Positions 2-63,225 of a stretch of 64,000 nucleotides of DNA are shown piece after piece. This DNA is from Gemmatimonadaceae bacterium (lineage in GTDB: Bacteria > Gemmatimonadota > Gemmatimonadetes > Gemmatimonadales > Gemmatimonadaceae). Numbering within the stretch: position 1 is the first letter of the stretch; each line of letters starts with the position of its first letter. A program made the position numbers and the translations under genes. Below the pieces are notes generated by a model. That model searched no databases. It saw nothing but the letters and a program-made list of their open reading frames with translations, and was not told the DNA's origin. The stretch lies in assembly GCA_036496605.1 (NCBI GenBank), contig DASXKV010000050.1, positions 248,001 to 312,000 on the forward strand, read 5' to 3'.

Positions 2-388
2 CTCGCTCTCCGCTCCGACGTGGCCGGCGAGACGGTGCACCTGTGCGCCGGTGATGGCGCGCTCCCGCTCGACGAACTGCTCGACATCACGTACGCGCGC
101 TGGGCCCAGCATCCCGAATGGCGGCGTCGGCGCGTCGCGCGTCCCGTCGTTGCCGATCTCGCCACCTACACGTTGTTCGAACGGACGATCGAGCAGGTCG
201 GTGACGCTTCACTGAGGCGCCTGACGCGTGCCCTGTCACACTTCGTGCCTCAGCTCGCGCTCCCCAAGCGCTTCCAGACGACAAACGCCGAACGACTCCT
301 CGGGCATAGGGCACCACCAGTGCGCGCCTTCTGGCTGCCGATGATCGACAATCTCGTCGCGCGGCACTCGATTCGGAGGGCCGCGTGA
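2..388 (+). CDS. C-terminal part of an SDR/thioester-reductase-like NAD(P)-binding protein (5' end outside window)
   Basis: The reading frame is open from base 2, so this is the tail of a gene that starts upstream. The 128 visible residues include a VHLCAGDG segment followed by LPLDELLDI, which resembles the end of the NAD_binding_4 (fatty acyl/thioester reductase, male-sterility) fold, then a helical C-terminal region rich in Arg. Such enzymes release carrier-bound thioesters as aldehydes or alcohols with NAD(P)H. The GTG of the next gene overlaps the TGA stop by 4 bp, so it is the first visible gene of the carrier-protein operon. The catalytic Ser-Tyr-Lys part lies outside the window, so the family assignment is inferred from the tail and context only. 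Confidence 0.5.
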   Translation, partial: LALRSDVAGETVHLCAGDGALPLDELLDITYARWAQHPEWRRRRVARPVVADLATYTLFERTIEQVGDASLRRLTRALSHFVPQLALPKRFQTTNAERLLGHRAPPVRAFWLPMIDNLVARHSIRRAA

Positions 389-642
389 GTATGGCAATGT
401 TCGTGTCGCGCACCGTGGATTGGGTCAATCGGACGCTCGTTCCACCAGGCGTTACCGTCGATGCCGACACGCCACTCTTCGCGAACGGGCTGATCAACTC
501 GATTCGCATTCTCAAGCTCATCGCCTGGACGGAGCACGCGCTCGGGATCCGCATTCCGGACACTCAGATTCGCATGGATTACTTTCGCACGGTGCGCCGC
601 ATCGCCGAGACCTTCGCTGGAGACTCCGATGTGGCCGCGTGA
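385..642 (+). CDS. Free-standing acyl/peptidyl carrier protein
   Basis: An 85-residue acidic helical protein of carrier-protein size. The phosphopantetheine attachment site is GLINSIRIL with Ser39; the usual DSL is NSI here. The later helices (LIAWTEHALGIRIPD, then FRTVRRIAETF) fit the ACP fold. GTG start at 385 overlaps the preceding stop; an ATG at 391 is an alternative. It sits directly before, and overlaps by 14 bp, an amino acid:carrier-protein ligase, so it is probably the cognate acceptor that carries an aminoacyl thioester rather than a fatty-acid-synthesis ACP. The carrier fold is seen; the aminoacyl cargo is inferred. Confidence 0.85.
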   Translation: MSMAMFVSRTVDWVNRTLVPPGVTVDADTPLFANGLINSIRILKLIAWTEHALGIRIPDTQIRMDYFRTVRRIAETFAGDSDVAA

Positions 643-1537
643 GGCAGTCATCAGGGTACTGCGTGCCCGTGGTGAGCTGTGGGACATTGCGCCCGGCGTG
701 ACCGTGCTTCGGGGCGATGCCGCGACCTTGCTTCGCGCGCTCGAGCGCGCAATCGGCGCACTGTGTGGCGTCGAGACCAGCGATGATTGGCGTGTGCCAC
801 CGGCGATCGACTTCGCGACACTCGCGCGCGCGGACTATTTCGCATCCTTCCCGCAATGGTTGACGCTCGCGTCGCATCTGAGCGACGATCCCGATGTACT
901 GCGCAATGTCGCCGAGCATAACGAGCTGAGTGGTGCCGTGGCGCCGGCGCGCCTCGCACTCAACCCGGCGGTCTGTTATCACGTTTACGCTGCGCTCGCG
1001 GGCGATATCATCAATGCTCCGAAGATCGTGACAGCGCAATCCGAGTGCTGGCGGCACGAGGGCGGCCGACACGTACCGCTCGAGCGAGGATGGGCCTTCA
1101 CGATGCGCGAGGTGGTGTGCGTCGGCAGCGACGAGGACGCGCGCGCCTTCCTCGAACGATCGGTCGAGCGCGTTGGTGATCTCGCACGCACGCTCGAACT
1201 GGACGCGACGGTCGAGGTCGCGACCGACCCCTTCTTCGCGCCAGTCGCGCGAGCGAAGCTGCTGCTCCAGCAGATGAAGGAGCTCAAGCGCGAGCTTCTC
1301 TTGCCGGTGAGTCCGCAGGCGCGCATTGCCGCGTCCTCGTTCAACCTGCACGACACCTTCTTCGGCGAGAGCTTCGACATCCGGCTCGCCAATGGACGGC
1401 CTGCGACGAGCGCCTGCGTCGCATTCGGTCTCGAGCGCTGGCTCCTCGCCATTCTCGTTAGGTACGGGCCCGATGCGGCACGGTGGCCGGCCATTCCATT
1501 ATCGATCGGCGACCTCGCCGAGGCACGACATGGCTGA
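629..1537 (+). CDS. Amino acid:[carrier protein] ligase (atypical seryl-tRNA synthetase homolog)
   Basis: A 302-residue class II aminoacyl-tRNA-synthetase-like catalytic core without a tRNA-binding domain. Cys116 (PAVCYH), Glu161 (TMREVVCVGS) and Cys263 (SACVAFGLER) are spaced like the Cys/Glu/Cys zinc ligands of archaeal-type SerRS and of the Bradyrhizobium/Agrobacterium amino acid:carrier-protein ligases. SECWRHEG plus TMREVV form motif 2 and VAFGLERWLLAIL forms motif 3. Known members activate Gly or Ala with ATP and load the 4'-phosphopantetheine of a small carrier protein. The adjacent upstream carrier gene is the expected partner. Substrate cannot be read from sequence. The start ATG lies inside the carrier gene, typical of translational coupling. 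Confidence 0.85.
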   Translation: MWPREAVIRVLRARGELWDIAPGVTVLRGDAATLLRALERAIGALCGVETSDDWRVPPAIDFATLARADYFASFPQWLTLASHLSDDPDVLRNVAEHNELSGAVAPARLALNPAVCYHVYAALAGDIINAPKIVTAQSECWRHEGGRHVPLERGWAFTMREVVCVGSDEDARAFLERSVERVGDLARTLELDATVEVATDPFFAPVARAKLLLQQMKELKRELLLPVSPQARIAASSFNLHDTFFGESFDIRLANGRPATSACVAFGLERWLLAILVRYGPDAARWPAIPLSIGDLAEARHG

Positions 1538-2282
1538 GACGATTCCGTCGGCCGGCTCGCTGTACGCGCGCCACGCCCGCGCCGCCGACCGCGGCGCCTG
1601 GTCGGTGGAGCACGATATCCGCTGGGTCGCGATCAATCGCGGCCGTGCACTTGCCCAGCCGGATATTCTCGCCAAGCTGCGCGCCGCCGCCCTCATCGAG
1701 TCGTTCCATCCGGTCAACCTCTCACGGCTCATTCGCTTTGCATGGGACGACGTCGACGCCGGCGTCGTGTTCTCGCTCGAGATGTACGAGGGATTCAAAC
1801 ACTTCCATGCCCTGCGCATGTATCTCGACGCCGTCGGCTTCGAGCCGCGCATTACCGACGAAGAGCTCGGGCAGATTCGGCAGCGGACGGACCGCAACGA
1901 TCTCGATCCGACGGATCCCGTTGGTCCGCTCGTCGAGTTCATGCTCAGCGAGCACCTCGCCGCGTACTTCTTCCGTCGACTCGGCGAGCAGGCCGAGGAG
2001 GCACAGCTGCGCGTATTGCTCGCGCTCATCGCCGCCGACGAGGTGCGCCACGCGCAGGCGGCGTCCGACCTCATCGCCAAGCGCATCGCCGCGAATCTTG
2101 AGCTCGCGCCTAACGTACTTCGCGCCGCGGCGCACTTCCGACACTATGGCGAAGAGGCCGTTGGCCAGGTGCCGACGGCGATGGAGGGCGACGAGATCGC
2201 GATTCGTACTTTCGCCACGCGCATCGAGCGACTCTGCGGGATGCGCTTCGTCGATCACCTCAAGATCGAACTGGAGCTCTGA
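1530..2282 (+). CDS. Ferritin-like diiron protein (putative oxygenase/desaturase), first of a pair
   Basis: A 250-residue, all-helical protein. Metal-ligand candidates are EMYEGFKH in the first half and a glutamate in SEHLAAYFFRRL followed by DEVRHAQ in the second, the pattern of ferritin-like carboxylate diiron enzymes related to acyl-ACP desaturases and AurF-like N-oxygenases. ATG at 1530 overlaps the ligase stop by 8 bp; longer upstream extensions would be antisense-like readings of the ligase gene. The position after a carrier protein and its ligase suggests oxidation, desaturation or N-oxygenation of the carrier-bound amino acid, which is inference. The exact subfamily is not recognised. 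Confidence 0.65.
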   Translation: MAETIPSAGSLYARHARAADRGAWSVEHDIRWVAINRGRALAQPDILAKLRAAALIESFHPVNLSRLIRFAWDDVDAGVVFSLEMYEGFKHFHALRMYLDAVGFEPRITDEELGQIRQRTDRNDLDPTDPVGPLVEFMLSEHLAAYFFRRLGEQAEEAQLRVLLALIAADEVRHAQAASDLIAKRIAANLELAPNVLRAAAHFRHYGEEAVGQVPTAMEGDEIAIRTFATRIERLCGMRFVDHLKIELEL

Positions 2283-2284
2283 CC

Positions 2285-2833
2285 ATGCAAATCACCAATC
2301 GCGAGCTCACGCTCCTCAACTTCTACCGTGCGTCGGAGCTGCACGGTGGACTCGTCCTCGGACGACTCGTGCAGCATGTGCGCGAGCCGGAGTTGATCCT
2401 CCGTCTCACCGCGCACAGCGCCGAGGAAATTCTGCACGCGCAGCTCTGGACCGAGACAATCGTCGCCGTCGGCGGCCAGCCGAGCGCTACCTCGGACACG
2501 TATCAGTCCCGTTATGCAGCCGCGCTCGGTGCTCCGACTTCGTTGCTGGAGGTGATGGCCCTGACGCAGGTCTTCGAGCGCGGCGTCTACCGGCACTTTG
2601 TGATGCATTTGCGACGGACGGGCACTCATCCGCGCGTGCGAGCAACGCTTCGCCGCATGCTCGCCGACGAGCGCGGGCATCTCTCATGGGTGAAAGAGTG
2701 GCTCGACGCCCAGGCCGGTTCGCGCCGTGCCGCCGTGCCGGCACTGATGCGCCGCTATACCGTCGTCGATGCTGCGATTCGCAGACAGCTGATGAGTGAT
2801 TACGAATGGAGGGAGTTGGCATGCGCGTCCTGA
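2285..2833 (+). CDS. Ferritin-like diiron protein, second of the pair
   Basis: A 182-residue four-helix protein with the full canonical ligand set: Glu in ASELHGG, EEILHA (E..H), Glu in VFERGVYRH and DERGHL (E..H). This is the arrangement of bacterioferritin/rubrerythrin-like diiron centres. It lies 2 bp after the previous diiron gene and overlaps the next gene by 13 bp. Because both neighbours in the pair carry metal ligands, they may be two separate oxidative steps, or an enzyme and a helper. Substrate unknown; not similar enough to a named enzyme for a symbol. Confidence 0.65.
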   Translation: MQITNRELTLLNFYRASELHGGLVLGRLVQHVREPELILRLTAHSAEEILHAQLWTETIVAVGGQPSATSDTYQSRYAAALGAPTSLLEVMALTQVFERGVYRHFVMHLRRTGTHPRVRATLRRMLADERGHLSWVKEWLDAQAGSRRAAVPALMRRYTVVDAAIRRQLMSDYEWRELACAS

Positions 2834-3987
2834 CCGTTACCGAACGCCTATCAACGGGTCGCGCCGAACGCATCGCGCTCCCGAATACCGTCGACGACCG
2901 GCTCTACTTTGCGCAGGTACGCGAGGATCCAGAGCTGGAGCTACACGCACTAACCCCTGGACCTAACGACTCGTTCGTCGTCGTCGGCTCGGGGGGATGC
3001 ACGGCGCTCTCGCTTCTTGGCGGTGGCGCCGGCCATGTCACTGCGGTCGACGTCAATACCACACAGGGGCATCTCATCGAGCTCAAGCTCGCGGCGCTCA
3101 CTGTCCTCTCACGCTGGGACGCGCTGGCCTTCCTCGGCGCATGCGATTGTCTCGTTGGCGAGCGCATCGACATGTACGCCGAGTTACGGCCACAACTCTC
3201 CTTCCGCGCGCGTGCATACTGGGACACGCAGCTCTCGGCCATTTCGGACGGTGTACTCGGCGCCGGCGTCACCGAGCGCTTCATTCGCATGCTCGTGCGC
3301 GCCCTGCGCGTCGTGCTGCGACCGCGTTCTGGTCTGGAACGCATGCTCGGTTGTGAGTCGATCGACGCGCAGCGGGGACTCTTCGCACGCGAGTGGAACA
3401 CGATTCGCTGGCGCCTCTTCTTTCGGATTCTGCTCAATCGAGCCGCGTTCCGTCGGACGTACGACCCGGCGTTCTTCAACCACCTCGAGCGCCCGAGCTT
3501 CGCCGAGCATTTCCGACGGTGCGCCGAGCATGCGCTCACCGAGCTGCCGGTGCGCGGGAATTATTTCCTGCACCACATGATCACTGGGCGCTACGACGTC
3601 GACGCGGACGACGGGGTCCCACCGTATCTCACGGAGGCGGGTTACGAAGCGATTGGCGCGTCGAGCGAGCGACTCACCGTCGTCGACGGAACGATGACCG
3701 ATTATCTCCGGACGCTTCCGGATCACAGCGTCTCCGGCTTCTCGCTCTCGAATATCTGCGAGTGGTTGGCGCCCAACGATATCGACGCATTGTTTGCCGA
3801 GATCGTGCGCACGGCGGTGCCGAATGCGACGCTCTGCTTCCGGAACTTCGTCGGTTGGACCGAGGTGCCGACGCGCTTTCGCTCGGTCGTTCCCGAGGAT
3901 CGTTCGCTTGGCGAGCGGCTGATTCCACGGGATCGGAGCGTCGTTGCGCGACGCTTCGCCGTCTGCCGCGTAAACGCGGAGGCGTGA
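2821..3987 (+). CDS. DUF3419/BtaA-like S-adenosylmethionine 3-amino-3-carboxypropyl transferase
   Basis: A 388-residue protein with the BtaA/DUF3419 signature: FAQVREDPELELHAL, then a nucleotide-binding stretch VVVGSGGCTALSLLGGGAG, AVDVNTTQGHLIELKLAAL, and a C-terminal SNICEWL segment. BtaA transfers the 3-amino-3-carboxypropyl group of SAM to diacylglycerol in betaine-lipid synthesis; relatives act on other acceptors. No BtaB N-methyltransferase is adjacent, so ordinary DGTS lipid synthesis is unlikely to be complete here. ATG 2821 is preferred to 2806 because GGAGGG lies about 7 nt before it. The operon context suggests the acceptor is the product built on the carrier protein. Confidence 0.75.
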   Translation: MRVLTVTERLSTGRAERIALPNTVDDRLYFAQVREDPELELHALTPGPNDSFVVVGSGGCTALSLLGGGAGHVTAVDVNTTQGHLIELKLAALTVLSRWDALAFLGACDCLVGERIDMYAELRPQLSFRARAYWDTQLSAISDGVLGAGVTERFIRMLVRALRVVLRPRSGLERMLGCESIDAQRGLFAREWNTIRWRLFFRILLNRAAFRRTYDPAFFNHLERPSFAEHFRRCAEHALTELPVRGNYFLHHMITGRYDVDADDGVPPYLTEAGYEAIGASSERLTVVDGTMTDYLRTLPDHSVSGFSLSNICEWLAPNDIDALFAEIVRTAVPNATLCFRNFVGWTEVPTRFRSVVPEDRSLGERLIPRDRSVVARRFAVCRVNAEA

Positions 3988-3989
3988 TC

Positions 3990-5117
3990 ATGGGCGCCGC
4001 AGTGTCCGCGCGTCCTGCCATCTGCGTGCGCGACGCCGATGCCGGTGACAATGACGCGCTCCTCGAGATCGCCGCCTCGTGTCCGATGGAAGGCGACATC
4101 GCGCTCGCGATGACTCGCGCTCCCGATTTCTTCCAGCTCAATCGGCTCGAGGGTGCGCAATGGCGCGTCGGCGTCGCGGAAATGGACGGCCGAGTAGTGG
4201 GATGCGTCATGGGAGCGCAGCGACGCGCGTACCTCAATGGAGAGGAACGCTGGACCTTCTACACTGGCGACTTGAAGGTTCATCCGACGAAGCGGCGTGC
4301 AGGCGTGGCGGACGCGCTGAGTGAATGGGTACGAACCGCGCTCGGGGATATGGGAGGTAGCGGCGCGCCAGTCCTCCTCACCATTCTCGGCGGGAATCGC
4401 GCGATGGAGCGTCGTACCCTCGGTCGCGGCCGCGTCCCGCGCTTCGAACGGTTCGCGACGATTCGAGCATTCTCAATTCCGCTGCTCTTTCCGCGGCGAT
4501 TCGGACAGACGTCGCCGCGCGTCCATCGTGCAACGATGGCCGATATCGAGGAGATGATCGTCCTGTGGAAGCGCGTCGCGCCGGCGCGGCAGTTCGCGCC
4601 GGTGCTCACTCCCGAGAGTTTCGCCGAGTGGGTCGCCAGCGCGCCTGGACTCGATGTCTCGGATTTCCGTCTCGCGCGAGATAGTGCCGGCCGACTCCTC
4701 GGCTTTCTCGGCTGGTGGGATCAGTCGTCATTCAAGCAGCTTCGCGTGATGCGGTACTCGCCGAGGCTCGGCGTCGTGAGAGCCGTCATCAATGGCCTCG
4801 CAAGCCTGACGCACGGCGTGGCGCTCCCGAGTCCCGGAGAGGCCCTTCGTTATTGCACGGCGACGCACGTCTGCGTGCCCGGCGAAAAGTCCGACGTACT
4901 GAGGGCTCTCGTTAGGTCGAGCTACGGCGAGCTCCGTGACTCTCGTCATGCATTCGCGACGATCGGTCTCGACGTGCGCGATCCGCTTTGTGGCGCGCTC
5001 GATGGGCTTTTCGTTCAGCCGACAGATTCGCACGCGTTCGTTTGCACGGCACTTGGAGATTATTCGGGACCGTCGCTCGTCGATCGGCCGTTGCAGTACG
5101 AGATCGCGCTCGTATGA
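3990..5117 (+). CDS. Tandem GNAT-family N-acyltransferase
   Basis: A 375-residue protein with two GNAT-like halves. The N-terminal half holds the acetyl-CoA-binding motif (LKVHPTKRRAGVADAL, R-x-x-G-x-A type, near residue 95). The C-terminal half (from about residue 185, TMADIEEMIVLWKR) resembles a second, degenerate GNAT fold. ATG 3990 is used; GTG 3984 is an alternative. It starts 2 bp after the BtaA-like gene and overlaps the transporter by 4 bp. Probable role: N-acylation of the pathway product, or self-protection. The GNAT fold is clear for the first half, the role is inferred. Confidence 0.75.
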   Translation: MGAAVSARPAICVRDADAGDNDALLEIAASCPMEGDIALAMTRAPDFFQLNRLEGAQWRVGVAEMDGRVVGCVMGAQRRAYLNGEERWTFYTGDLKVHPTKRRAGVADALSEWVRTALGDMGGSGAPVLLTILGGNRAMERRTLGRGRVPRFERFATIRAFSIPLLFPRRFGQTSPRVHRATMADIEEMIVLWKRVAPARQFAPVLTPESFAEWVASAPGLDVSDFRLARDSAGRLLGFLGWWDQSSFKQLRVMRYSPRLGVVRAVINGLASLTHGVALPSPGEALRYCTATHVCVPGEKSDVLRALVRSSYGELRDSRHAFATIGLDVRDPLCGALDGLFVQPTDSHAFVCTALGDYSGPSLVDRPLQYEIALV

Positions 5118-29036: not shown

Positions 29037-29984
29037 ATGACACGCGTCGACTATGACTCGATCGCGGCGGATTATGACGAACGCTACGCGCGCAACGACT
29101 ACCGCGGGGTCGCCGATGCGCTGACGCGGTTTCTGCGCACGACGAGGTCGCCCGTCGTGCTCGAGGTGGGGTGTGGCACCGGTCATTGGCTTGCCGTCGC
29201 CGCCAGCGCGTCAAGCCTCGTCACCGGCGTCGATCGATCGTGGGAAATGCTCCGCCGCGCGCGACGCGCCGCGCCACGCGCGCTCATCGTCCACGGAACA
29301 GCGGAGCAGCTCCCTTGGGCGTCGCAGAGCATGGATCGCGTGTTCTGCATCAACGCGTTCCATCACTTTGCCGACAAAGCTGCGTTTCTCCGGGAGTGCC
29401 GACGGGTACTGCGTCCGGGCGGCGCGTTCCTCACCGTCGCCATCGATCCGCACATCGCGACTGACAAATGGTGGATCTACGACTACTTCCCGACAAGCCT
29501 CGAGGCCGACCGTCGGCGTTACGCATCCACTGATCTCCTTCGCCGCGATCTTCTCGACCTCGGATTCGCGGCCGCGTCGACCGAGGTTGTGCAACACATG
29601 CCCGCCGAGCGCTCCTTTGACGTCGCTCTCGCGCGCGGATCACTCGAGCGCTCGTCGACATCCCAGCTGATGGTGATCAGCGACGCCGAATACGAGTCGG
29701 GCATTGCGCGTCTCCGAAAGGACCGCCCCGTGCTGCGATCGGATTTGCGACTTTATGGAACAGTCGCCACCCTGTCAGCCCGAGCAGCGCGCCTCACAGT
29801 CCCTGTCATCCTGAGGAGCGAAGCGACGAAGGATCTCCTTTTCACCGCGAGAACCGAGAATGAATGTCACGCTCAGGGCGTGAGGCGCAGACCAGCCGCA
29901 AGCGAGATCAATCGCGGTTTGAAGGATCAAAATCTGAAAGCGCTCACCACGTTTGAGTCGGAGTCGGATGCGCATCATACTTAA
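29037..29984 (+). CDS. Class I SAM-dependent methyltransferase, with a read-through repeat tail
   Basis: 315 residues. A Methyltransf_11 domain occupies about the first 240: YDSIAADYDERYA, VVLEVGCGTGHWL (SAM motif I), FCINAFHHFADK and LRPGGAFLTVAI. From about residue 255 the frame crosses the repeat element near 29804 and reads the diagnostic VILRSEATKDLL, so the last ~60 residues are probably not an ancestral part of the enzyme. The end overlaps the convergent gene by 210 bp. Substrate unknown. Confidence 0.8.
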   Translation: MTRVDYDSIAADYDERYARNDYRGVADALTRFLRTTRSPVVLEVGCGTGHWLAVAASASSLVTGVDRSWEMLRRARRAAPRALIVHGTAEQLPWASQSMDRVFCINAFHHFADKAAFLRECRRVLRPGGAFLTVAIDPHIATDKWWIYDYFPTSLEADRRRYASTDLLRRDLLDLGFAAASTEVVQHMPAERSFDVALARGSLERSSTSQLMVISDAEYESGIARLRKDRPVLRSDLRLYGTVATLSARAARLTVPVILRSEATKDLLFTARTENECHAQGVRRRPAASEINRGLKDQNLKALTTFESESDAHHT

Positions 29985-30188: not shown

Positions 30189-30573
30189 GCGACACCTCCT
30201 CCTATACCGTATACCCTTTCTCGGTTTCGTGCTCGCGACAACTTTGGCTGTTGCGAGTTGTGGCAAATTCGCTCAACAGGCCGATGCCCAATTCGGCGAT
30301 CAGCATTTCAAAACATCGATCGCATTGGTCGAGCTGTATCATGTGCGACATGGCGCCTATCCCGCCTCGCTCGCGGATCTAGACTTCATTGGCGATTGGG
30401 ACAAGATCGCGTTGGTCAACGTTCGCTACGAGCGACTGTCCGACGGCTATGCGCTCGATGTCGTGCGAGGTTGGGTCGGCAAACCCACGATCAGCTACCC
30501 GAAGGAGTTCTGGCACGGGCTCGGGTTGAAGCGAACGAATGTAGCCATGATACCGCCGCCAAACGGCGATTGA
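30187..30573 (+). CDS. Small lipoprotein, type-IV-pilin-like G-region
   Basis: 128 residues: lipoprotein signal (FVLATTLAVASC) then a soluble domain with IALVELYHVRHGAYPASLADL, a pattern seen in pseudopilin/GspG-like proteins (YxxxHGxYPxSLxDL). It is likely a surface or periplasmic protein. Divergent start with the membrane protein via CATG, and the following gene begins 4 nt after its stop. Confidence 0.65.
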   Translation: MRHLLLYRIPFLGFVLATTLAVASCGKFAQQADAQFGDQHFKTSIALVELYHVRHGAYPASLADLDFIGDWDKIALVNVRYERLSDGYALDVVRGWVGKPTISYPKEFWHGLGLKRTNVAMIPPPNGD

Positions 30574-30576
30574 GCT

Positions 30577-31425
30577 ATGCGTGACCCGTCGGGAATACGA
30601 GCAGAGTTCGACGAGGAATGCCGACGCGTCGGCGTGCGACTCGACGATGTCCTGCATTTGCTCGACCCATCGCCGCCGCGTGTGCCAGGACTGCACGCAA
30701 TTGGATTCGACCTCGCCGTGGGCCTCGAGTATCTCCAGGCCATGCCGGACAATGCCGGCACGATCGCGTTCGTCGAGTGCATGCGGCCGCATCTGCTGCT
30801 GGCCGCCCATCACCGCGCAACGTTGGCCGGCGCGCAACAAGGAGCCTTACAGGCCGGGCCGAGAGTCGAGTTGTCCCCCGCGCCCATCATGGCGTACCGA
30901 ACGATGCGCGAGATCGACGATTACGAAGAGTACTTGCTCGCGGTCGTCTGTTCGCTCAGCGGCGACGACGCGGCACGCGATCGCGTGCTCGAGCGTCGCG
31001 GCATCTACACGCGATACGCAGAGATCTTCGACGCGTACCTCGAGCTCGCCGGCGACGGCGTCGAGGGAGCCGAGGCCCTGCGGCGCGCGACCTTTCTCTA
31101 CTGGTGCTCCGCGACTCAACCAGCGTGCCTAACGGGCGTGGCCGAGTTGGCCGAGTCGCAGGAGTTGGATGTCGTCGAAACGCTCGACCATCTCTGCGAG
31201 CGAGGCACGCTCGATCCGCAGTTGCGCTGGATGCTCGGCTACTATCACGGTCGCTTCCCGGCTGTGTTCGGCCGCTTCGAAAAGACGCGTGCGCTGCAGC
31301 GCGTGCTCAGGCGGACATTTCCCGAAGCATGGCGCGCCGCCGAGCCCGAGACGCGAGATTTTGAGCATCGCGGCCTCATGGGAAGGTTCTGGAATGACGT
31401 CATCACGAGCGCGACTGACGACTGA
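30577..31425 (+). CDS. Conserved protein of unknown function (intact copy of a duplicated gene)
   Basis: 282 residues, acidic and helical, without signal or membrane segment. Notable segments: RLDDVLHLLDPSPPRVPGL, ELAESQELDVVETLDHLC, RWMLGYYHGRFPAVFGRF and GLMGRFWNDVI. A decayed second copy lies at 35139-35709. No family recognised. It begins 4 bp after the lipoprotein stop, so the two probably form one unit; the convergent DUF4249 gene ends 6 bp away. Confidence 0.75.
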   Translation: MRDPSGIRAEFDEECRRVGVRLDDVLHLLDPSPPRVPGLHAIGFDLAVGLEYLQAMPDNAGTIAFVECMRPHLLLAAHHRATLAGAQQGALQAGPRVELSPAPIMAYRTMREIDDYEEYLLAVVCSLSGDDAARDRVLERRGIYTRYAEIFDAYLELAGDGVEGAEALRRATFLYWCSATQPACLTGVAELAESQELDVVETLDHLCERGTLDPQLRWMLGYYHGRFPAVFGRFEKTRALQRVLRRTFPEAWRAAEPETRDFEHRGLMGRFWNDVITSATDD

Positions 31426-31430
31426 CACAA

Positions 31431-32618
31431 CTATTGCCGCACGAACTTGAACGGCCCGCCACCAATTCGAAAGTTGCCCGTGATCGTGTCGCCCTTGAGC
31501 GTCCCGTCGAAGACCTCCGTAGTGTCCGCCGCCGACCACGCCGAGAGGAGAACCAGCTCGAGCTGGCCATTGTGCGCCGAGCCGAGCATCCCGCACGGAA
31601 GACAACCGACGTAGCCGAGGCGCGGGCGCGGCCAGTATTGCCCGCTCAGTGCATCGGCTTGACCACTGCGCGACCCCGGCGACTCGACCCAGATGTTGAA
31701 CTCGGTGAACTGCGCGCCGAGTGCGGGAATCGTCGATTGGTCGAGCTGAAAGCGGCCCTCGATCGCCTCCGTCTGCGGTGCCGTAACCTGCACGCTGTCG
31801 TACCGCAGCCTGACGAGTGAGCCGAACACGCCGAGTCCACCGCTCACACGACTGATCAGCCCCTCGCCCGAAAGCGGATCGTTGTGCGTCCGATACCAGT
31901 CGTAGTAGTTGGAGTCGACGGCGGACACCGTCACCGCTTGCGCGAATCCCGGGATGAAGACGTGCGGCAGGTCGTCGAGATCCGCGTTGCGCAACATCCC
32001 GGGAAGCTGCACGTGCGTGCTCTCGGTGAAGAACGAGCGCGGCCCGAATGGCGTCTCGACGCGCACGAAGTAGCTCCGCGCCGTCGGCGACGCCGGCCAG
32101 TCGAGCATCAGCGTGGCGCTCGAGCGATCGAAGCTGCCTAACGCCGCGCTCATCGCCGTCGCACCGTCCGGCACCGACGTCTCGGCGCTGAGCTGCTCAC
32201 CCGCGGTCGTTACCACCGTGAGCCGGTACGTCGCGTTCCGTTGGAGTGAGCTGCCCGCGAGCGCGAAACGGTAGACACCGTGCCCGGCCCCAGGGCCGCC
32301 GTTGTTGTCCTCGTGCGCGACGAGCGTGCCGCCGTCCGGCGTCGTCAGCGTCATGAGCGCCCCGGTCTCCGCGATCCCCGCGTCGCTCCCGATCGGATCC
32401 TCGAGATCGAACGACGGCGCGATGATGTCGACGCGCCCGGAATTCGTGCGCTCCAGTAGCACGACTTGGGTCTGCGCGCTTCCGCTCAACACACCGTGCA
32501 GTGCGAGCTGCGGCGTCGTGCGCGGAATCGCCGTCTTATCGAGCTCGCACCCGCAGACGAGCGCGACGAGGACCGGAGAGTACTTCCTCAACTCAAAACG
32601 CAACGCGTACCCCCACAC
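31431..32618 (-). CDS. DUF4249-like outer-membrane lipoprotein
   Basis: A 395-residue protein with a lipoprotein signal (YSPVLVALVCGC) and beta-rich repeats. Members of DUF4249 are found next to TonB receptors, as here: its start overlaps the receptor stop by 26 bp. It probably acts as an accessory surface lipoprotein of the receptor, in the way SusD-like proteins do, though it is not SusD. A late CGCGMLG-type cysteine pair (GCLPCGM) is present. Confidence 0.75.
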   Translation of the reverse strand: MWGYALRFELRKYSPVLVALVCGCELDKTAIPRTTPQLALHGVLSGSAQTQVVLLERTNSGRVDIIAPSFDLEDPIGSDAGIAETGALMTLTTPDGGTLVAHEDNNGGPGAGHGVYRFALAGSSLQRNATYRLTVVTTAGEQLSAETSVPDGATAMSAALGSFDRSSATLMLDWPASPTARSYFVRVETPFGPRSFFTESTHVQLPGMLRNADLDDLPHVFIPGFAQAVTVSAVDSNYYDWYRTHNDPLSGEGLISRVSGGLGVFGSLVRLRYDSVQVTAPQTEAIEGRFQLDQSTIPALGAQFTEFNIWVESPGSRSGQADALSGQYWPRPRLGYVGCLPCGMLGSAHNGQLELVLLSAWSAADTTEVFDGTLKGDTITGNFRIGGGPFKFVRQ

Positions 32619-34917
32619 TCGGCAGAATCGGAAACTGGGTGTATCCTCGCCGCGTCGGACTGGCGGTCGCGTAGTCGTAGAAATAAACGAAGACGTTGCG
32701 CGCGTTGTACGCGTTGACGACGCTCACGTACGGCGCAACGGTCGCTCCGCGCACCGTCATCTCTCGCGAGACGTCGAGATCCAGCCGTTGCGTCGCCGGG
32801 AAGCGCGCCGAGTTGCGTGCCCCGCCTAACGGCTCGAGATAGATCGGCGGATTCCCCGTTCCCCACGTATCGTTTGCGGGATCATAAACTCGGCGGGCGA
32901 TCTGGCCGACGATCGGCGTGTAGGGCGTTCCCGTCGCGTAGCCGAGGCGCGCACCGATGCGGTAGTGCGCAAGCCGCCACGTCGCGACGGCATTGACATC
33001 GTGTCGCCGGTCATTGCCCGGAGCCCACCGCACGCCGTCGCGCTCGTGCGACGCGACACCGTACGAGTACGAAAGCCAACCCGTTGGCCCTCGCGCCGGC
33101 TGCCAACGCGCTAGCAGATCGACCCCGTAGGTGAGACCAGTCGCGGCGAAAAACTCGTCGCCGCGGACCGTTGGATCTTCGTACGGATTCGCGTCGAGGA
33201 CGCGATCGTACTTCTTCACGTAGCCCTCGATCTTGATCGACGTCGTCTCCAGTCGTCGCTCCACGCCCGCGACCCAGTGCCACGCCGTCTCGACGGGAAT
33301 GTACTGATCGCTCGCGAGCCAGATGTCGAAGAAGCGGAACGGACCGTCGCCGGCGAGCGAATGCATGTTCTGCGTGACGCGGCCGGCCGCCGCAGTGAGC
33401 GCGATCGTCGGCGTCGCGAAGTATTTGACGGACAGTCTCGGCGACAACGCCGCCCAATCACGACCGCCGCTGAGCGCGTCGCCGCGCAATCCACCTTCGA
33501 TCACCCAGCGGTAGGACACACGCCAGATGTCATCGAGCCATGCCGCATACGACATCGGGTCCTGGACGATGTCGAACGCGCTTGTTCCCGTCTCGGCCGA
33601 GCTGGATGAATAACCAACGTGCGTCGACGCGACCTCGTAACCGAGCGACCAGTCGTTGGCGCTGGTGCGCATCGCCAAAGACCCGTTTACTCGAACGTCG
33701 CGCACGTCGCTGCGCTGCGTCTCGGCGCCTTCCCCGATGTCGAGGCGCGTCGAGAACGCCGATGTGGAGACGCGCTGCTCGAACGAAATCCTCGAGGTGA
33801 AGTCCTTCGACAGCGTCGCGCCAACGACGCGGTTCCCCCAATCGTACTGCCACCCTCCCTGCCCCGCGCTCGAGAAGCTCGAGTCGTTGACCAGGCTGGC
33901 GAGGTTCAGATCGAGCAGGTCCTTGCCCGCGTATCCAGTGACGGCGACACGCCAGGCGTTAGGCAGCGTGTACGCGACATGTCCCTCGAGATCGACGAAG
34001 TGATAGGGGAAGTTGTCGCGGCTGAAGGCAGCCGCGACGGCATCGGCATAGGTCCGCCGGGCGGCGAAGCTCCAGTTGCCGCGGCCACTGCCCAACGCGC
34101 CGGCGAGCCGGGCCGACGTCGCGAGCACGGAGACGTCGGTCGTCCCGTGGATTCCCGCGCGCGTCTCATCTGCCGAGTGCACGTCGAGCACACTCGAGAG
34201 GCGGCCGTCGTAGCGCGCGGGGAAGGCACCGGTCATGAGCTCGATACCACCGACGGTCGCGTCCATGAACGTCGAGAACAGCCCGCCCATGTGAAATGGA
34301 TTGTAGATCGGAATCCCGTCGAGCAGCACGAGATTCTGGTCGGCGCTCCCGCCGCGAACATTGAGCCCCGTATTGTAGTCGTTGCGCGCGCTCACGCCCG
34401 CGAGGAGCTGGACGACGCGCGCGACGTCCGGCTCTCCGATCGCAGGCACACCTGCCATCAGACGCGCGGGCATCGCGATCGTGCCGACGTTCGGTCGCGC
34501 GGTAAACGACTCGACCTCAGTGCGCGCGACGTCGGTGCGGACGGGCGCGAGCTGCTGCGCCTCCGTCTCCAATACGATGCTCACGCGAAGCGTATCGTTA
34601 GGCGCGACGCCGACAACACGATCGAGCGACCGGTAGCCGAGGCGCTGGATGTGAATCGTCGCGCGGCCGGCCGGAACGTTGATGAGCGCGAACCGGCCGG
34701 CGGAGTCGGTCGTAGTTCGTACAGCGCTGCCACTGACGCCGACCGCCGCACCGGGAATTGGCGAGCTATCGGGCCGGCTCGTCACTCGACCGATGATGAT
34801 TCCACTACTCGGCGTTTGTGCGCCGAGCATCGCGGGAACGAAGAAGATCAGCAGGCCCTTTACAGGGTTCACGAACTCGTGCCTGGAGAAAGGTCGCCAA
34901 ATCTGCGCCCGCGGCAT
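32593..34917 (-). CDS. TonB-dependent receptor with carboxypeptidase-regulatory-like N-terminal domain
   Basis: 774 residues: signal peptide (LLIFFVPAMLGAQ), a CarboxypepD_reg-like domain (IIIGRVTSRPDSSPIPGAAV..YRSLDRVV), a plug with NVRGGSADQNLVLLDGIPIYNPFH, then a 22-strand barrel ending in GVRVAF. It imports an unknown large substrate with TonB energy. The ATG at 34917 gives a basic leader; GTG 34872 would start right at the signal peptide and is an alternative. A TATACT box lies at 34944. Confidence 0.92.
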   Translation of the reverse strand: MPRAQIWRPFSRHEFVNPVKGLLIFFVPAMLGAQTPSSGIIIGRVTSRPDSSPIPGAAVGVSGSAVRTTTDSAGRFALINVPAGRATIHIQRLGYRSLDRVVGVAPNDTLRVSIVLETEAQQLAPVRTDVARTEVESFTARPNVGTIAMPARLMAGVPAIGEPDVARVVQLLAGVSARNDYNTGLNVRGGSADQNLVLLDGIPIYNPFHMGGLFSTFMDATVGGIELMTGAFPARYDGRLSSVLDVHSADETRAGIHGTTDVSVLATSARLAGALGSGRGNWSFAARRTYADAVAAAFSRDNFPYHFVDLEGHVAYTLPNAWRVAVTGYAGKDLLDLNLASLVNDSSFSSAGQGGWQYDWGNRVVGATLSKDFTSRISFEQRVSTSAFSTRLDIGEGAETQRSDVRDVRVNGSLAMRTSANDWSLGYEVASTHVGYSSSSAETGTSAFDIVQDPMSYAAWLDDIWRVSYRWVIEGGLRGDALSGGRDWAALSPRLSVKYFATPTIALTAAAGRVTQNMHSLAGDGPFRFFDIWLASDQYIPVETAWHWVAGVERRLETTSIKIEGYVKKYDRVLDANPYEDPTVRGDEFFAATGLTYGVDLLARWQPARGPTGWLSYSYGVASHERDGVRWAPGNDRRHDVNAVATWRLAHYRIGARLGYATGTPYTPIVGQIARRVYDPANDTWGTGNPPIYLEPLGGARNSARFPATQRLDLDVSREMTVRGATVAPYVSVVNAYNARNVFVYFYDYATASPTRRGYTQFPILPSVGVRVAF

Positions 34918-34943
34918 CGGCGTGTCCAGCGGCCTGCACGTTC

Positions 34944-34949
34944 AGTATA
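34944..34949 (-). promoter_or_regulatory. Possible -10 box of the TonB receptor gene
   Basis: TATACT on the minus strand about 27 nt before the ATG at 34917, in an AT-richer patch. The -35 box is unclear. Confidence 0.3.
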
Positions 34950-35037
34950 GTTCTACTGTTCGATGTCGTGCGGCAGCCGGCAACCGTTGATCGAGGAGCG
35001 CTGCTGCCTAACGGCGCTACCTCGGCCTTGGACGTGA

Positions 35038-35136
35038 AACGCGTCCGACTTTGATTCGGTCGCAGCAGACTATGACAAACGCGACGCGCGAAACGGTAGA
35101 TCCGGTACCCAGTGCCGCGGCCTAACGGCGAATGAG
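35038..35136 (+). pseudogene. Remnant of a methyltransferase N-terminus and a lipoprotein 3' end
   Basis: Bases 35038-35102 align with the start of the 29037 methyltransferase gene (here SDFDSVAADYDKRDARN against VDYDSIAADYDERYARN). The next stretch matches the last codons of the 30187 lipoprotein gene and its spacer (CCTAACGGCGAATGAGCTATG against CCAAACGGCGATTGAGCTATG, from 30565). The middle of that block has been deleted. It is the left part of a duplicated and decayed copy of the 29.0-31.4 kb region. Confidence 0.7.
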
Positions 35137-35138
35137 CT

Positions 35139-35709
35139 ATGCGTGACCCGTCGGGAATACGAGCGGAGTTCGAGGACGAATGCCGCCGCGTCGGCGTGCG
35201 CCTCGACGACGCGCTCCACCTGCTCGACCCCGCGCCGCCGCGTGCACCGGGCCTGCATGGCAATATGCCTCGACGTTCCCGTGGGCCTCGAGTATCTCCA
35301 GGCCATGCCTGACAATGCGGGCACAGTCGCGTTCGTCGAGGTCATGCGCGTCGAGGAGGCGCTGCGACGCGTCGCCTTCCTCCTCTGGTGCGCGGCGACA
35401 CAGCCGGCGTGCCTCACTGGTGTCGCCGAATTGACCGAGTCGCAGGAGTTGGACGTCGTCGAAACGCTCGACGGCGTCTGCAAGGAAGGCGAGCTCGATC
35501 CCCAACTCCGATGGATGCTCGGCTACTATCACGGTCGCTTCCCGGCTGTGTTCGGCCGCTTCGAGCGTGCGCGCGCGCTTCAGCACGTGCTCAAGCAGAC
35601 GTTCCCGGAAGCCTGGCGGAGCGCGGACCGCGAGGCGCGGCACTTCGAGGGACGTGGGCTAATGGGCAGGTTCTGGAGTGACGTCATCACGAGCGAAGAG
35701 CGCGACTGA
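35139..35709 (+). pseudogene. Decayed second copy of the 30577 gene
   Basis: The first codons (MRDPSGIRAEF) match the 30577 product. The frame then shifts near 35263-35290, and the part corresponding to about residues 70-158 is missing; the rest (VGLEYLQAMPDNAG, LTESQELDVVETLDGVC, RWMLGYYHGRFPAVFGRF, GLMGRFWSDVI) continues in another frame to the stop at 35709. A downstream start in the shifted frame could still make a shorter protein, but the missing centre and the shift indicate a broken gene. Confidence 0.75.
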
Positions 35710-41663: not shown

Positions 41664-41670
41664 GATTGCT

Positions 41671-41716
41671 GGTGATTGGTGGTTGGTGAACCACCAACCA
41701 CCAGCCACCAATCACC
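41671..41716. terminator. GGTGG-rich hairpin between convergent genes
   Basis: GGTGATTGGTGG (41671-41682) pairs with CCACCAATCACC (41705-41716), and an inner GGTTGGTG/CACCAACC stem adds to it. Between the PspC stop at 41663 and the minus-strand stop at 41712; serves both directions. Confidence 0.7.
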
Positions 41717-43031
41717 TAGGGATGACCCCGTAGTACCGCGCCATCCAGTACGGCAGCAGATAGTCGATCCCTGCCGTCTCGACGAGGCCCTGATCCCCGC
41801 CGTACAACAGCTGTGGACTACGCTGCCAGAGGAAATCGGTGTTGGGCCGATCGTTCACCGCGACGATGCCGCACGCCTTGTTGGTGCCGCACACCTGGTA
41901 CTTGTTGCTCACGTGCGTGAAATAGTCCCGGCGCGAGCGCTCGAGCCACAGACCGAGGAAGTTGGGCGTGTCGGAGTCGCGAAGGGCATTGGCGCCGCGG
42001 AGCGCCCGATCGATCATGTTGAAATGTGCGTTCTGGTGCGTGGCCGTGCACCGCCGCAGCACGCCGTAGGCATTCGCATAGAAGGGACGGTAGAGCGAGG
42101 CGGCCGGCTCGAGCCTAACGAGATCGAACATTCCGATATAGTCCAGATTGAACTTGAAGTAGCCGCCGTACGTGTCGGAACACTCGGCGCGGATCGGCAC
42201 GCTGACGAGCGGCGCGTGTGCCGCCGCGAACGCTGTGTACACGGCTTCGTGCTTCAGCGGATTCAGATGACGGCCGATCTGGAGGAACGTCAGCTGCTCG
42301 TCGGGCCGGCCGTTGAACGTCGTCGAGAATGAGCCGTTAGGCATCTGGACGCTCCAGCCGTGCGTGATCAGATTGGTGAGGAGTCGCGTCACGAGCGCCG
42401 ACGCTTGCGCGCGAAGGTTTGCGTCGGGAACAAAGTCGTAGACGACGGCCAGACCGAAGAAGACGCCCGCGTACTGATCCCGCGAGGTGTTACCGATCCA
42501 ATAAACCCGCTGGCCGTTGTACGTCGTCGCGTACATCCCGTTGTGGCCTTCGTCGGCGGTGATTTTGGCGAGGTAAGGCGAGCTCGCCGGCACCCACGAT
42601 CGCGCGAGGACATTGCGGTCCGTCTGCGTCGTCACGTCGACCAATGATTGAACGCCGTTGAGCGCGCGCCGCACGGCGTCGAGTGCGTCTGCCGATTGCG
42701 TCACCGCGTACCGGAAGGACTCGGCGGCGAGATAGTGTCCGGTCCAGATCGCGCCGTCGCCCATGCGATTGTACGTCGTAACCGTCGTGTAGCCGGCTGA
42801 CGACGGATCCGACGACGCGAATCCCGGATCGGCGAGCGTGCCGTACGGCATGTGGAGCGCGCGGATGTTGGCCGAGATCGCATCGGCGTCGGCTTGCGTC
42901 GGGACCGGTGTCGCCGCCACGACGGCGACCTGCCGCGTAGTTAACGTGCTCTTAAGAGGGTTCAGCGGCTCCGTCGATTGACAAGCGCTGATCGCGACAA
43001 CGATGATGAGGAGGGCGAGGGCGTTGCGCAT
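41712..43031 (-). CDS. Secreted lipoprotein, (alpha/alpha) barrel-like, unknown function
   Basis: 439 residues: lipoprotein signal (LLIIVVAISAC), then a helical body with several aromatic/His segments (MGDGAIWTGHYLAAESFRYAVTQS, GLAVVYDFVP, HQNAHFNMIDRAL). The repeated helix-loop-helix layout with internal Gly and acid residues resembles a glycosidase or other alpha/alpha-toroid enzyme, but no active-site motif can be named. Start MRNALAL at 43031. Confidence 0.65.
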   Translation of the reverse strand: MRNALALLIIVVAISACQSTEPLNPLKSTLTTRQVAVVAATPVPTQADADAISANIRALHMPYGTLADPGFASSDPSSAGYTTVTTYNRMGDGAIWTGHYLAAESFRYAVTQSADALDAVRRALNGVQSLVDVTTQTDRNVLARSWVPASSPYLAKITADEGHNGMYATTYNGQRVYWIGNTSRDQYAGVFFGLAVVYDFVPDANLRAQASALVTRLLTNLITHGWSVQMPNGSFSTTFNGRPDEQLTFLQIGRHLNPLKHEAVYTAFAAAHAPLVSVPIRAECSDTYGGYFKFNLDYIGMFDLVRLEPAASLYRPFYANAYGVLRRCTATHQNAHFNMIDRALRGANALRDSDTPNFLGLWLERSRRDYFTHVSNKYQVCGTNKACGIVAVNDRPNTDFLWQRSPQLLYGGDQGLVETAGIDYLLPYWMARYYGVIPR

Positions 43032-60780: not shown

Positions 60781-63225
60781 CTACTCCGATTGTAACGCAC
60801 TCGCTGGATTCAACCGCGCGGCGCGAGCGGCGGGAATCGTGGTTGCCAGGACTGTGATCGCGGTAATTAGCAGCGTGGCAATTGCCAGGATCAACGGATC
60901 CGACGCGCGAATGGCGTATACACGATTGGAGATGAGCTGGCCGGAGAAATAGGCCAGCCCGATTCCGAGCGCGGCACCGACGAGACCGAGTATCACCCCT
61001 TGCCGCATAACGAGCAGGAACACGGAGCGCGGCGACGCGCCGAGGGCGAGACGTGTGGCCATTTCCTCACGCCGCAGCGAACCGGCGTACGAGACAACTC
61101 CGTAAATTCCAACCGCCGCAAGCACGATCGCGATGCTTCCGAAGATCAGCATCAGCGCCATCCCGAGCTCCTGCCGCCGGAGTGTGCCGCCGACGAGATC
61201 CGACGCGAGCTCGAAATCGAGCGCCATCGTCGGGTTGAGCTTCCGTACCTCGGCGCGGATGGCTCGCTCGACGGCGCCCGGGTCCGATCGTGACGTGGAC
61301 ACGACGGCGGTCACGCGCGGAAGCGGAAACTGCGTCAGCGGTTGATAGAAAGTGGGTTCCGCGGGATCGGCGAGAGACTTCTGCCTAACGTCGCCGACCA
61401 CGCCGACAATCGTCACCTCGTTCTTCGGATTGGGCGCCGGATATCCAGCGGAGAATTGCACGCCGATCGGGTCTCGGCCCTTGAGGTAGCGATCGACGAA
61501 CAGGCGGTTGACGATCGCGACCCGTACAGTGTTGGGGAGATCGCCTGAACCGAAATCGCGACCCTTGACGAGCGGCGTGCCCATCGCGGTGAAGAGTCCC
61601 GCGCTGACGACGCGTTGGCGCGTGCCCGGCGCACTGGCCGCGTCAAACGGTTCGCCATGGAACTGCGCCAGCAGCGAGCTCTCGAGCGTGCCGCGCATGG
61701 GATACGCCGAGACCAGCCCGGCCTCGGCGACGCCGCGGACACTCCGCACCGCCGTCAAGAGATCGAGCTGTGCCTGGCTCACGGCGGCGGGCGTGCGAAA
61801 TTGCGGACCGAGGAACGACGCGTCGAACAACAACCGCTTGTCGGTCACGAACCCGATGTCCGTGTTGCGGAGATTCGCGAATCCGCGAACGAGCCAGCCG
61901 GCGCCGGCGAGCAACATGATTGCCAGCGCGACTTCGGCCACCGTCATCGCCATGAGCCAGCGTGTCGTGCCGCGGCCGGCGCTCGCCGACCGTGAGCTGT
62001 CGTTCATGAGTGTTTTCATATCGCTACGCAGCAAGCGCAGCGCCGGAGCAAGCCCTATAATTGCGCCGGTGACGACGAGCACCGCGAGCGAGAAGAGCAG
62101 AACGCGCGCATCGAATTGCACCGCATCCAGACGCGGTAGCTTCGACGCGCCGATCGCGAGCAGCGCGCGGAGACCCAGCGCCCCAAGGGCGACCCCGACG
62201 ATCGTGCCGGCAACCGACAGGACCATCGACTCCGTCAGGAGCTGGCGAACCAGCCGTCCCCATCCAGCGCCTAACGCCGCCCGCACGGCCATCTCGCGCG
62301 CCCTCGCCGCGCCGCGCGCGAGCAACAGATTGGCGACGTTCACGCATGCGAGGAGCAGGAGCAGCCCCGTCGCCGACATGACGATGATCAGGATCGGCCC
62401 GAGATCGCCGACGATCGAGTCAACGAGCGGCCGCGGGACATAGACTCGGTTGCGGTCCGACGCGGGAAAGTCGGCGGCGAGGCCGCCAACGACCGTCGCC
62501 ATCTGGCCTTTCGCGCGCTCGATCGTCGTCCCATGTCGCAGGCGCATGAATCCTTCCTGCCCGTGGTTGACGTCGGTGGTCGGCACTGGCTGTGCAACCC
62601 AAATGTCGGCGCCGTGTGGAATGTCGAAGTCGCGCGGCGCGACGCCGGAAACGGTCGAGTTGAATTCGGCGAAGTGGATCGGCTTCCCAACCACTGCGGG
62701 ATCGCTGTGGTAGAACTGCTTCCACATCCGGGTCGAGATCACGATCGCCGGCGGTGGTCCGGGCTGCGGCGGTGCATTGGGCGGCGGTGGCGGGAGTACC
62801 TTGAAGTCGTCGTGCGAGAAGCCACCTGCGGTCATCGGGAGACCGAACAGCTCGAAGAACCCTTCGCTCACCGCCTGAACCTGCACGTGCGAGGGCGTTC
62901 CATCTGCCGCGAGAAGCGTCGCGTCGAACGACTGGAGTCCCGCCGCGCGCTCGATGGAGAGTTTGGGATCGTTCAGGCGGTAGATCTCTGCGCCCGACAG
63001 AAGCCCCGTCGTGACACGGCCGTCCGTGAGAGCCGTTCGCAGGCTGTAGAGGTCCTCCGCGTTTGGATACGGGAGCGGCTTGAGAAGGACAGCGCTCAGC
63101 GTCGTGAAAATTGCCGTCGTGGCGCCGATGCCTAACGCTAGTGTGACGATGGCCGTGAGCGGGAATCCCGGCGCACGGCGGAAGGCGCGGAGTGTAACGC
63201 GGATGTCCTGAAGCAGCGTTTCCAT
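60781..63225 (-). CDS. MacB/ADOP-family ABC transporter permease
   Basis: 814 residues of the acidobacterial-type duplicated permease (ADOP): starts with LLQDIRVTLRAFRRAPGFPLTAIVTLALGIGATTAIF, then a MacB-type periplasmic domain, a FtsX-like block (TGLLLLLACVNVANLLLARGAARAREMAVRAALGAGWGRL) and, near the end, a second FtsX block (YAGSLRREEMATRLALGASPRSVFLLVMRQGVILG). The cognate ATPase is not in the window. Substrate unknown. Confidence 0.9.
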   Translation of the reverse strand: METLLQDIRVTLRAFRRAPGFPLTAIVTLALGIGATTAIFTTLSAVLLKPLPYPNAEDLYSLRTALTDGRVTTGLLSGAEIYRLNDPKLSIERAAGLQSFDATLLAADGTPSHVQVQAVSEGFFELFGLPMTAGGFSHDDFKVLPPPPPNAPPQPGPPPAIVISTRMWKQFYHSDPAVVGKPIHFAEFNSTVSGVAPRDFDIPHGADIWVAQPVPTTDVNHGQEGFMRLRHGTTIERAKGQMATVVGGLAADFPASDRNRVYVPRPLVDSIVGDLGPILIIVMSATGLLLLLACVNVANLLLARGAARAREMAVRAALGAGWGRLVRQLLTESMVLSVAGTIVGVALGALGLRALLAIGASKLPRLDAVQFDARVLLFSLAVLVVTGAIIGLAPALRLLRSDMKTLMNDSSRSASAGRGTTRWLMAMTVAEVALAIMLLAGAGWLVRGFANLRNTDIGFVTDKRLLFDASFLGPQFRTPAAVSQAQLDLLTAVRSVRGVAEAGLVSAYPMRGTLESSLLAQFHGEPFDAASAPGTRQRVVSAGLFTAMGTPLVKGRDFGSGDLPNTVRVAIVNRLFVDRYLKGRDPIGVQFSAGYPAPNPKNEVTIVGVVGDVRQKSLADPAEPTFYQPLTQFPLPRVTAVVSTSRSDPGAVERAIRAEVRKLNPTMALDFELASDLVGGTLRRQELGMALMLIFGSIAIVLAAVGIYGVVSYAGSLRREEMATRLALGASPRSVFLLVMRQGVILGLVGAALGIGLAYFSGQLISNRVYAIRASDPLILAIATLLITAITVLATTIPAARAARLNPASALQSE

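Follow-up and report, generated by a model that had tools for sequence, protein, structure and literature searches.

The uptake words treated in the papers cited here belong to two proteobacterial families. DUS, the uptake words of Neisseriaceae, are put at about 1,900 copies in Neisseria gonorrhoeae and N. meningitidis and at thousands of copies in relatives (PMC3630211), and for known uptake words a gradual effect of mismatch load is described (PMC1939737). The uptake words of Pasteurellaceae are reported to show a gene-terminus bias (PMC2346458). A further account describes USS with AT-rich downstream segments and terminator pairs, and inverted DUS/USS pairs acting as terminators are said there to be common (PMC12616744). 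Another system that has to be considered is the integron, for whose integrase IntI GTTRRRY is given as the tolerated motif (PMC10127599). Gemmatimonadota are named among the integron-bearing phyla (PMC8618304).

In the window, i.e., the whole stretch of 64,000 nucleotides that was analysed, the heptamer CCTAACG occurs 63 times where 3.5 copies are expected, the largest of 100 shuffles containing 9, and the majority of words with one mismatch do not exceed expectation. An Rfam search of the window yielded no match. The window's own genome (G000; 5.97 Mb) contains 4,285 copies of CCTAACG and 929 of the reversed word, which was used as control. CCTAACG is the core of the full word GCCTAACG, a non-palindromic octamer which is found, on either strand, about once per 1.2–1.8 kb. 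This octamer is the top 8-mer by z-score in samples of G000 (~762 kb; 462 observed vs 14.6 expected), of a genome of the same genus (G001; 568 kb; 331 vs 9.7), of Gemmatirosa kalamazoonensis (G018; 240 kb; 142 vs 3.5) and of a genome of another genus (G022; 136 kb; 98 vs 2.9). G018 was assigned to this species by the identity of stretches from two of its replicons. A smaller excess of the heptamer was observed in samples of G013 (29 vs 5.2) and G007 (5 vs 1.0). The informative length of the word is only about 8–9 bp, with A being the preferred next base after GCCTAACG in the window's genus and the last G being relaxed in G022, where the core is different. Summed over all one-mismatch forms, counts are not raised in G000 (1107 vs 1150), G001 (749 vs 824) and G018 (270 vs 316), and are raised in G022 (217 vs 163). 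The single mismatch forms which are up in G000 are mainly CCTAACA, CATAACG and CCTGACG, the first of which is raised in all four genomes.

The sequence-only reading had pointed to two copies of one gene in the window, between which the heptamer would have been gained or lost by silent changes. The features of this region are as follows.

30559–30565, forward strand: CCAAACG in the tail of the upstream gene, no word
30577–31425, forward strand: intact gene encoding 282 aa, without a Pfam family at E 1e-5
31128–31134, forward strand: CCTAACG as part of GCCTAACG, at codons CTA-ACG-GGC of the intact gene
31431–32618, reverse strand: gene between the copies, with a weak DUF4249 match (26.5 bits, below the cut-off of 28.5)
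32137–32143, forward strand: further copy of the word
32593–34917, reverse strand: TonB-dependent-receptor-like gene with Plug and CarboxypepD_reg domains, located between the copies
32825–32831, forward strand: further copy of the word
33957–33963, reverse strand: further copy of the word
34596–34602, reverse strand: further copy of the word
35007–35013, forward strand: further copy of the word
35121–35127, forward strand: CCTAACG before the decayed copy, present by one base, Pro codon kept
35143–35709, forward strand: decayed copy of the gene at 30577, frameshifted, ~280 bp missing, 3′ half still open
35412–35418, forward strand: aligned slot CCTCACT in the decayed copy, Leu-Thr-Gly kept, no word

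The motif of the intact gene lies where it had been reported, the codons at 31129–31137 reading CTA ACG GGC (LTG). The aligned codons of the second copy (35413–35421) read CTC ACT GGT, and thereby encode the same residues without the word, its heptamer slot differing from CCTAACG at two positions. This copy is rightly called decayed, as it has a one-base frameshift and lacks ~280 bp; the alignment of the two copies reaches 85% over 234 bp and 81% over 341 bp. The reported change in the reverse direction, CCAAACG against CCTAACG, is indeed a difference of one base, with the positions corrected to 30559 (from 30565) and 35121 (from 35122). It is also silent (CCA AAC GGC GAT TGA vs CCT AAC GGC GAA TGA), as both tails encode Pro-Asn-Gly followed by Asp or Glu and the stop in the frame of the upstream gene, only the tail of which is part of the aligned block. 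Silent gain or loss is thus borne out at both sites, whereas which copy gained or lost the word cannot be told, as the gene at 30577 has no match in either of the two same-genus genomes (G001 and G002) and only 34–35% matches in two other genera (search of 41 genomes, with matches in its own genome and in two genomes of other genera). On their own the two sites are an anecdote, and their significance lies in the genome as a whole. The finding is real and a small view of a striking genome-wide feature, the silent gain and loss between the copies being ordinary turnover of a maintained genomic word.

Within the G000 sample, 461 copies are coding, 86 are intergenic and 36 lie on boundaries, which corresponds to 0.70 copies per kb of coding and 0.84 per kb of intergenic DNA, these coding fractions being approximate as genes were called by a simple script. 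Coding sequences of G000 contain 460 words compared to 38 after synonymous codon shuffling within genes, a twelve-fold difference, and all four frames without an internal stop are in use by the word. A word acting on the level of DNA can in this manner dictate the use of rare codons and of stop codons: 40 of the 63 sampled TTA codons in G018 (64%) lie inside the word, as do 160 of 435 (37%) in G000, 119 of 225 (53%) in G001 and 41 of 124 (33%) in G022. For TAA stops the respective fractions are 10 of 20 in G018, 24 of 101 in G000, 12 of 76 in G001 and 4 of 18 in G022.

The strands are used nearly evenly, with 2205 and 2080 copies in the whole of G000. Per-stretch chi-square values fit even use in G000 (34.1 on 38 degrees of freedom) and amount to 37.6 on 40 in G001, 12.0 on 10 in G022 and 23.7 on 12 in G018. 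A weak imbalance is found in the pooled G000 sample (322/261) and on its contigs C50 (163/127) and C3 (70/56). A strong strand bias is therefore excluded and at most a weak imbalance is present. Orientation switches are random along C50 and more frequent than random along C3. Close pairs (<150 bp) are rarer than random on both contigs (16 vs 33.9 on C50, 6 vs 12.3 on C3), as are pairs closer than 100 bp in G001 (9 vs 24.1), whereas in G018 the latter are not rarer (11 vs 8.4). Inverted pairs within 100 bp are not enriched (5 of 17 in G000, 1 of 9 in G001, 3 of 11 in G018 and 1 of 4 in G022), and a bias of the word towards gene termini was not seen in the sampled genomes. In G018, 39 heptamers per 80 kb were counted in the chromosome sample and 53 and 52 in two megaplasmid samples. 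The small contig C1 of this genome was considered as a small plasmid and rejected, as the spacings of its words are the ones found at the start of C2 and it looks like an assembly overlap. Word-free gaps were likewise considered as mobile islands; 20 proteins from four of the longest gaps, only part of whose genes were looked at, turned out to be ordinary genes, with no mobile element among them.

That the motif should be retained in orthologs more often than neighbouring synonymous sites had been proposed along with the two gene copies, and the comparison was made on all alignments of G000 instead of the gene at 30577 (50 kb at 75% identity with G001, 12.5 kb at 76% with G002). The word is kept above its anagrams, with 13 of 35 sites against 405 of 2462 for G001 (Fisher p 0.004) and 7 of 10 against 132 of 575 for G002 (Fisher p 0.002). 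Residue-conserved codons inside the word are identical in 31 of 51 cases, compared to 16.6 expected from the same codons outside (CMH z 3.7); site numbers are small in this test, which pools G001 and G002 so that one G000 site may count twice. The reciprocal test with sites from G001 and G002 gave 33 of 68 against 23.3. Retention does not extend to all codons. While TTA is kept in 10 of 11 cases inside the word and in 5 of 25 outside, no retention was found for GTT (1 of 8 inside vs 20 of 116 outside) and AGG (2 of 5 vs 9 of 19). At the same time the word is not kept at 22 of the 35 G001-aligned sites, and retention is nil to slight against G018 (1 of 14) and G022 (1 of 5). The word is hence constrained, with fast turnover. 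An apparent depletion of one-mismatch forms at orthologous positions (2 of 33 ungapped G001 sites vs 31% for anagrams) was set aside as evidence, as the replacement of a rare codon such as TTA by a common one often takes changes at two positions.

The organism of the window is assigned to Gemmatimonadaceae on the grounds that G018 belongs to its family. Within this family, 26 of 158 genomes are loaded with 223–4,469 octamers while the other 132 contain 70 or fewer. The loaded genomes fall in 11 of 35 genera, the distribution being bimodal, on or off by genus. One member of the otherwise loaded genus g21 (G063) has only 3 octamers, by loss or misplacement. In a phylum set of 200 genomes, 131 are from outside the family. 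Raw counts amount to 168–779 copies in eight of them, all from the same order, and to 69 or fewer in the other 123. Loaded and empty genera could not be told apart in a ranking by identity of a single protein. No alternative word resembling the loaded one was found in samples (up to 20 kb each) of 20 genomes from empty genera; the candidates, nine of the 20 samples being viewed by position, proved to be weaker words in scattered places or, in G004 and G014, local tandem repeats.

From these observations it is inferred that DNA with the word is favoured by some ongoing process. The word is tentatively read as a candidate DNA-uptake-like self word that is kept by sequence-biased uptake or by selection, a reading which is quite possible if short of probable. 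Under biased uptake, imported self DNA with the word would replace alleles without it, in the manner of the uptake sequences known from Neisseriaceae and Pasteurellaceae, and synonymous gain and loss between gene copies would be the ordinary turnover of such a word. Uptake words provide the best fit because the octamer is sharp and non-palindromic, is dense, shows no strong strand bias, is retained with turnover and is present genus-wise. Like the DUS of Neisseriaceae, it is a short non-palindromic word with thousands of copies and clade-wise variants, and its density is of the order of the published DUS density. Unlike them, it is another word in another phylum, shows no excess of inverted pairs, has neighbour words that are not enriched overall in three of four genomes and is a candidate uptake word; among other reasons because inverted pairs are not enriched, it is not classed as a DUS. 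With USS it shares the order of density and the presence on both strands, but its informative part of ~8–9 bp differs from the organisation with AT-rich downstream segments and terminator pairs described for USS. Against uptake also speak the lack of a gene-terminus bias, the close pairs of G018 not being rarer, the ordinary genes in word-free gaps and the nil to slight retention against G018 and G022. In view of the gradual mismatch effect described in PMC1939737, the one-mismatch sums, which are not generally raised although they are in G022, may count against it as well.

ComEC was found in 37 and DprA in 38 of 41 genomes, both being present in G000. Both are shared by loaded and empty genera, so that the distribution of the word cannot be put down to them, and they make an uptake machinery plausible, nothing more. 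No report of a Gemmatimonad uptake sequence, of an overrepresented octamer or of the word as a genomic motif was found in open-licence PubMed Central. A candidate in Gemmatimonadota would add a new phylum to the families treated in the cited papers, and it is made testable by G. kalamazoonensis, a named loaded species with a complete genome.

The octamer GCCTAACG/CGTTAGGC is also the exact core word of integron attC sites (R′/R″ box, GTTRRRY/RYYYAAC), as CGTTAGGC holds GTTAGGC and fits GTTRRRY. The genome of the window encodes an IntI that looks intact (G000:C50:76067–77224, start uncertain), ~171 kb before the window. The protein is full-length by TIGR02249 (360.6 bits, cut-off 265), aligns to IntI 2a3v across the IntI-specific stretch with no gap longer than one residue, and its gene itself holds two copies of the word. 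At this place (L010:16067–19647, corresponding to G000:C50:76067–79647) the gene is followed by an IS91-like unit, consisting of an IntI-like tyrosine recombinase without the IntI-specific stretch and a Y2 transposase. No cassette array was found in the 60 kb around this IntI. Plasmid 1 of G. kalamazoonensis (NZ_CP007129.1) encodes an IntI as well (TIGR02249, 422.7 bits), which is followed within 9.2 kb by 11 attC-like sites with paired arms. Seven of the 22 ends of these sites are the exact octamer and the others are GTTAGAC, GTTAGGT, GTTAAGC or GTTGGGC forms. This integron, which is carried by a megaplasmid, lies within L267:12001–23881. Of the 26 loaded genomes, these two were searched for intI, and both have it.

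A causal tie between the dispersed octamer and the integron integrase, for example as a field of putative R-box-like landing or binding sites, nevertheless appears unlikely. It is favoured by the IntI in the window's genome, by the octamer ends of the attC-like sites in G. kalamazoonensis and by the attC variant GTTGGGC being also raised in G022 (64 vs 18). In addition, non-loaded relatives contain one-strand rows of the word: among the copies listed, 18 of 18 octamers on G250:C5, 18 of 19 octamers on G235:C2 and 18 of 19 heptamers on G025:C95 lie on one strand, and the median spacings are 628, 842 and 630 bp, respectively (range 0.3–4.2 kb). To judge from the listed positions and strands, these three rows have the look of cassette arrays. 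However, the three genomes hold only 50–62 octamers, and in other empty relatives (G186, G212) the copies among those listed are scattered. The dispersed copies also lack, as a rule, the paired boxes, the stem and the spacer of attC. In a folding scan for R″/L″...L′/R′ sites of 55–150 bp the true array locus gave 23 entries in 25 kb, compared to none in 240 kb of G018, 10 in 136 kb of G022 and, both strands counted, 9 in ~670 kb of G000 without the window and L007–L008 (e.g., L015:4314, L024:11128). Octamers followed by an attC-like spacer number 0 of 142 in G018, 0 of 331 in G001, 0 of 98 in G022 and no more than 2 of 418 in G000. Also in G000, RYYYAAC-to-CGTTAGGC spacings (10) do not outnumber those in the opposite order (15). 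Moreover, IntI tolerates GTTRRRY and attC ends vary, yet in G000 a strong rise is confined to GTTAGGC (461 vs 29) and GTTAGGT (83 vs 14). The dispersed copies are thus not attC as a rule, the word being common to both. Same-strand clusters are no more frequent than in shuffled sequence (5 vs 6.1 in G000), and the cluster at L010 6266–8492 was rejected as a set of cassettes, five of its six words lying in one frame of 826 aa.

There is a modest chance, on the doubtful side, that in these Gemmatimonadaceae the self word of the genome is causally identical with the core site of the integron. In its boldest form, uptake or another DNA-handling step may recognise GCCTAACG/CGTTAGGC and preferentially import environmental cassettes with such attC ends, the chromosomal copies being a by-product; alternatively, the genome may be a field of putative high-affinity IntI sites. 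The identity of the word with the integron core raises the question whether one recognition word serves both the capture of cassettes and the uptake of DNA, a question that was not met in the cited literature.

A Chi-like recombination word for an enzyme of the RecBCD, AddAB or AdnAB type is improbable to a greater degree. Chi sites are octamers that occur genome-wide, with a weaker excess and a clear strand bias. The word is likewise a non-palindromic octamer, it is present on all three large replicons of G018, and a weak strand imbalance does exist in the pooled G000 sample and in G018. However, this imbalance is at most weak, orientation switches at random or more often than that, and the excess is much larger than for Chi.

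Very improbable is a word driven by methylation or repair, such as the cyanobacterial HIP1 (GCGATCGC) or a product of very-short-patch repair. HIP1 is also very frequent and patchy between related genera, being described as scarce in certain relatives, while others have alternate words in its place (PMC4390886). Yet HIP1 is palindromic and linked to methyltransferases, while GCCTAACG is not its own reverse complement. A repair process is opposed by the neighbour words, none of which is depleted enough to be the source from which the word was made: the largest deficit in coding sequences of G000 is ~57 (CCTCACG, 136 vs 192.9), compared to an excess of ~440 for the word, and all neighbours together are near expectation in the sums given above for this genome. 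A neutral origin from codon usage or mutational bias and chance, which would leave the two sites without further meaning and with which the high turnover of G001-aligned sites would agree, is hardly credible given the twelve-fold excess over codon shuffles, the copies in intergenic DNA and stop codons, the retention above matched codons and the near absence from most genera of the family.

Other repeated sequences were observed in the window. A stretch of 30–40 bp at 29803–29842 (catcctgaggagcgaagcgacgaaggatctc) has matches of 84–100% at dozens of places in G001 and G002 and belongs to a dispersed, palindrome-like repeat family. A short imperfect palindrome at 41668–41717 (tggtggttggtgaaccaccaaccacc) has matches at a few places in G001. 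An ADOP permease is encoded at 60781–63225, short parts of which have matches at dozens of further places in G001 and G002.
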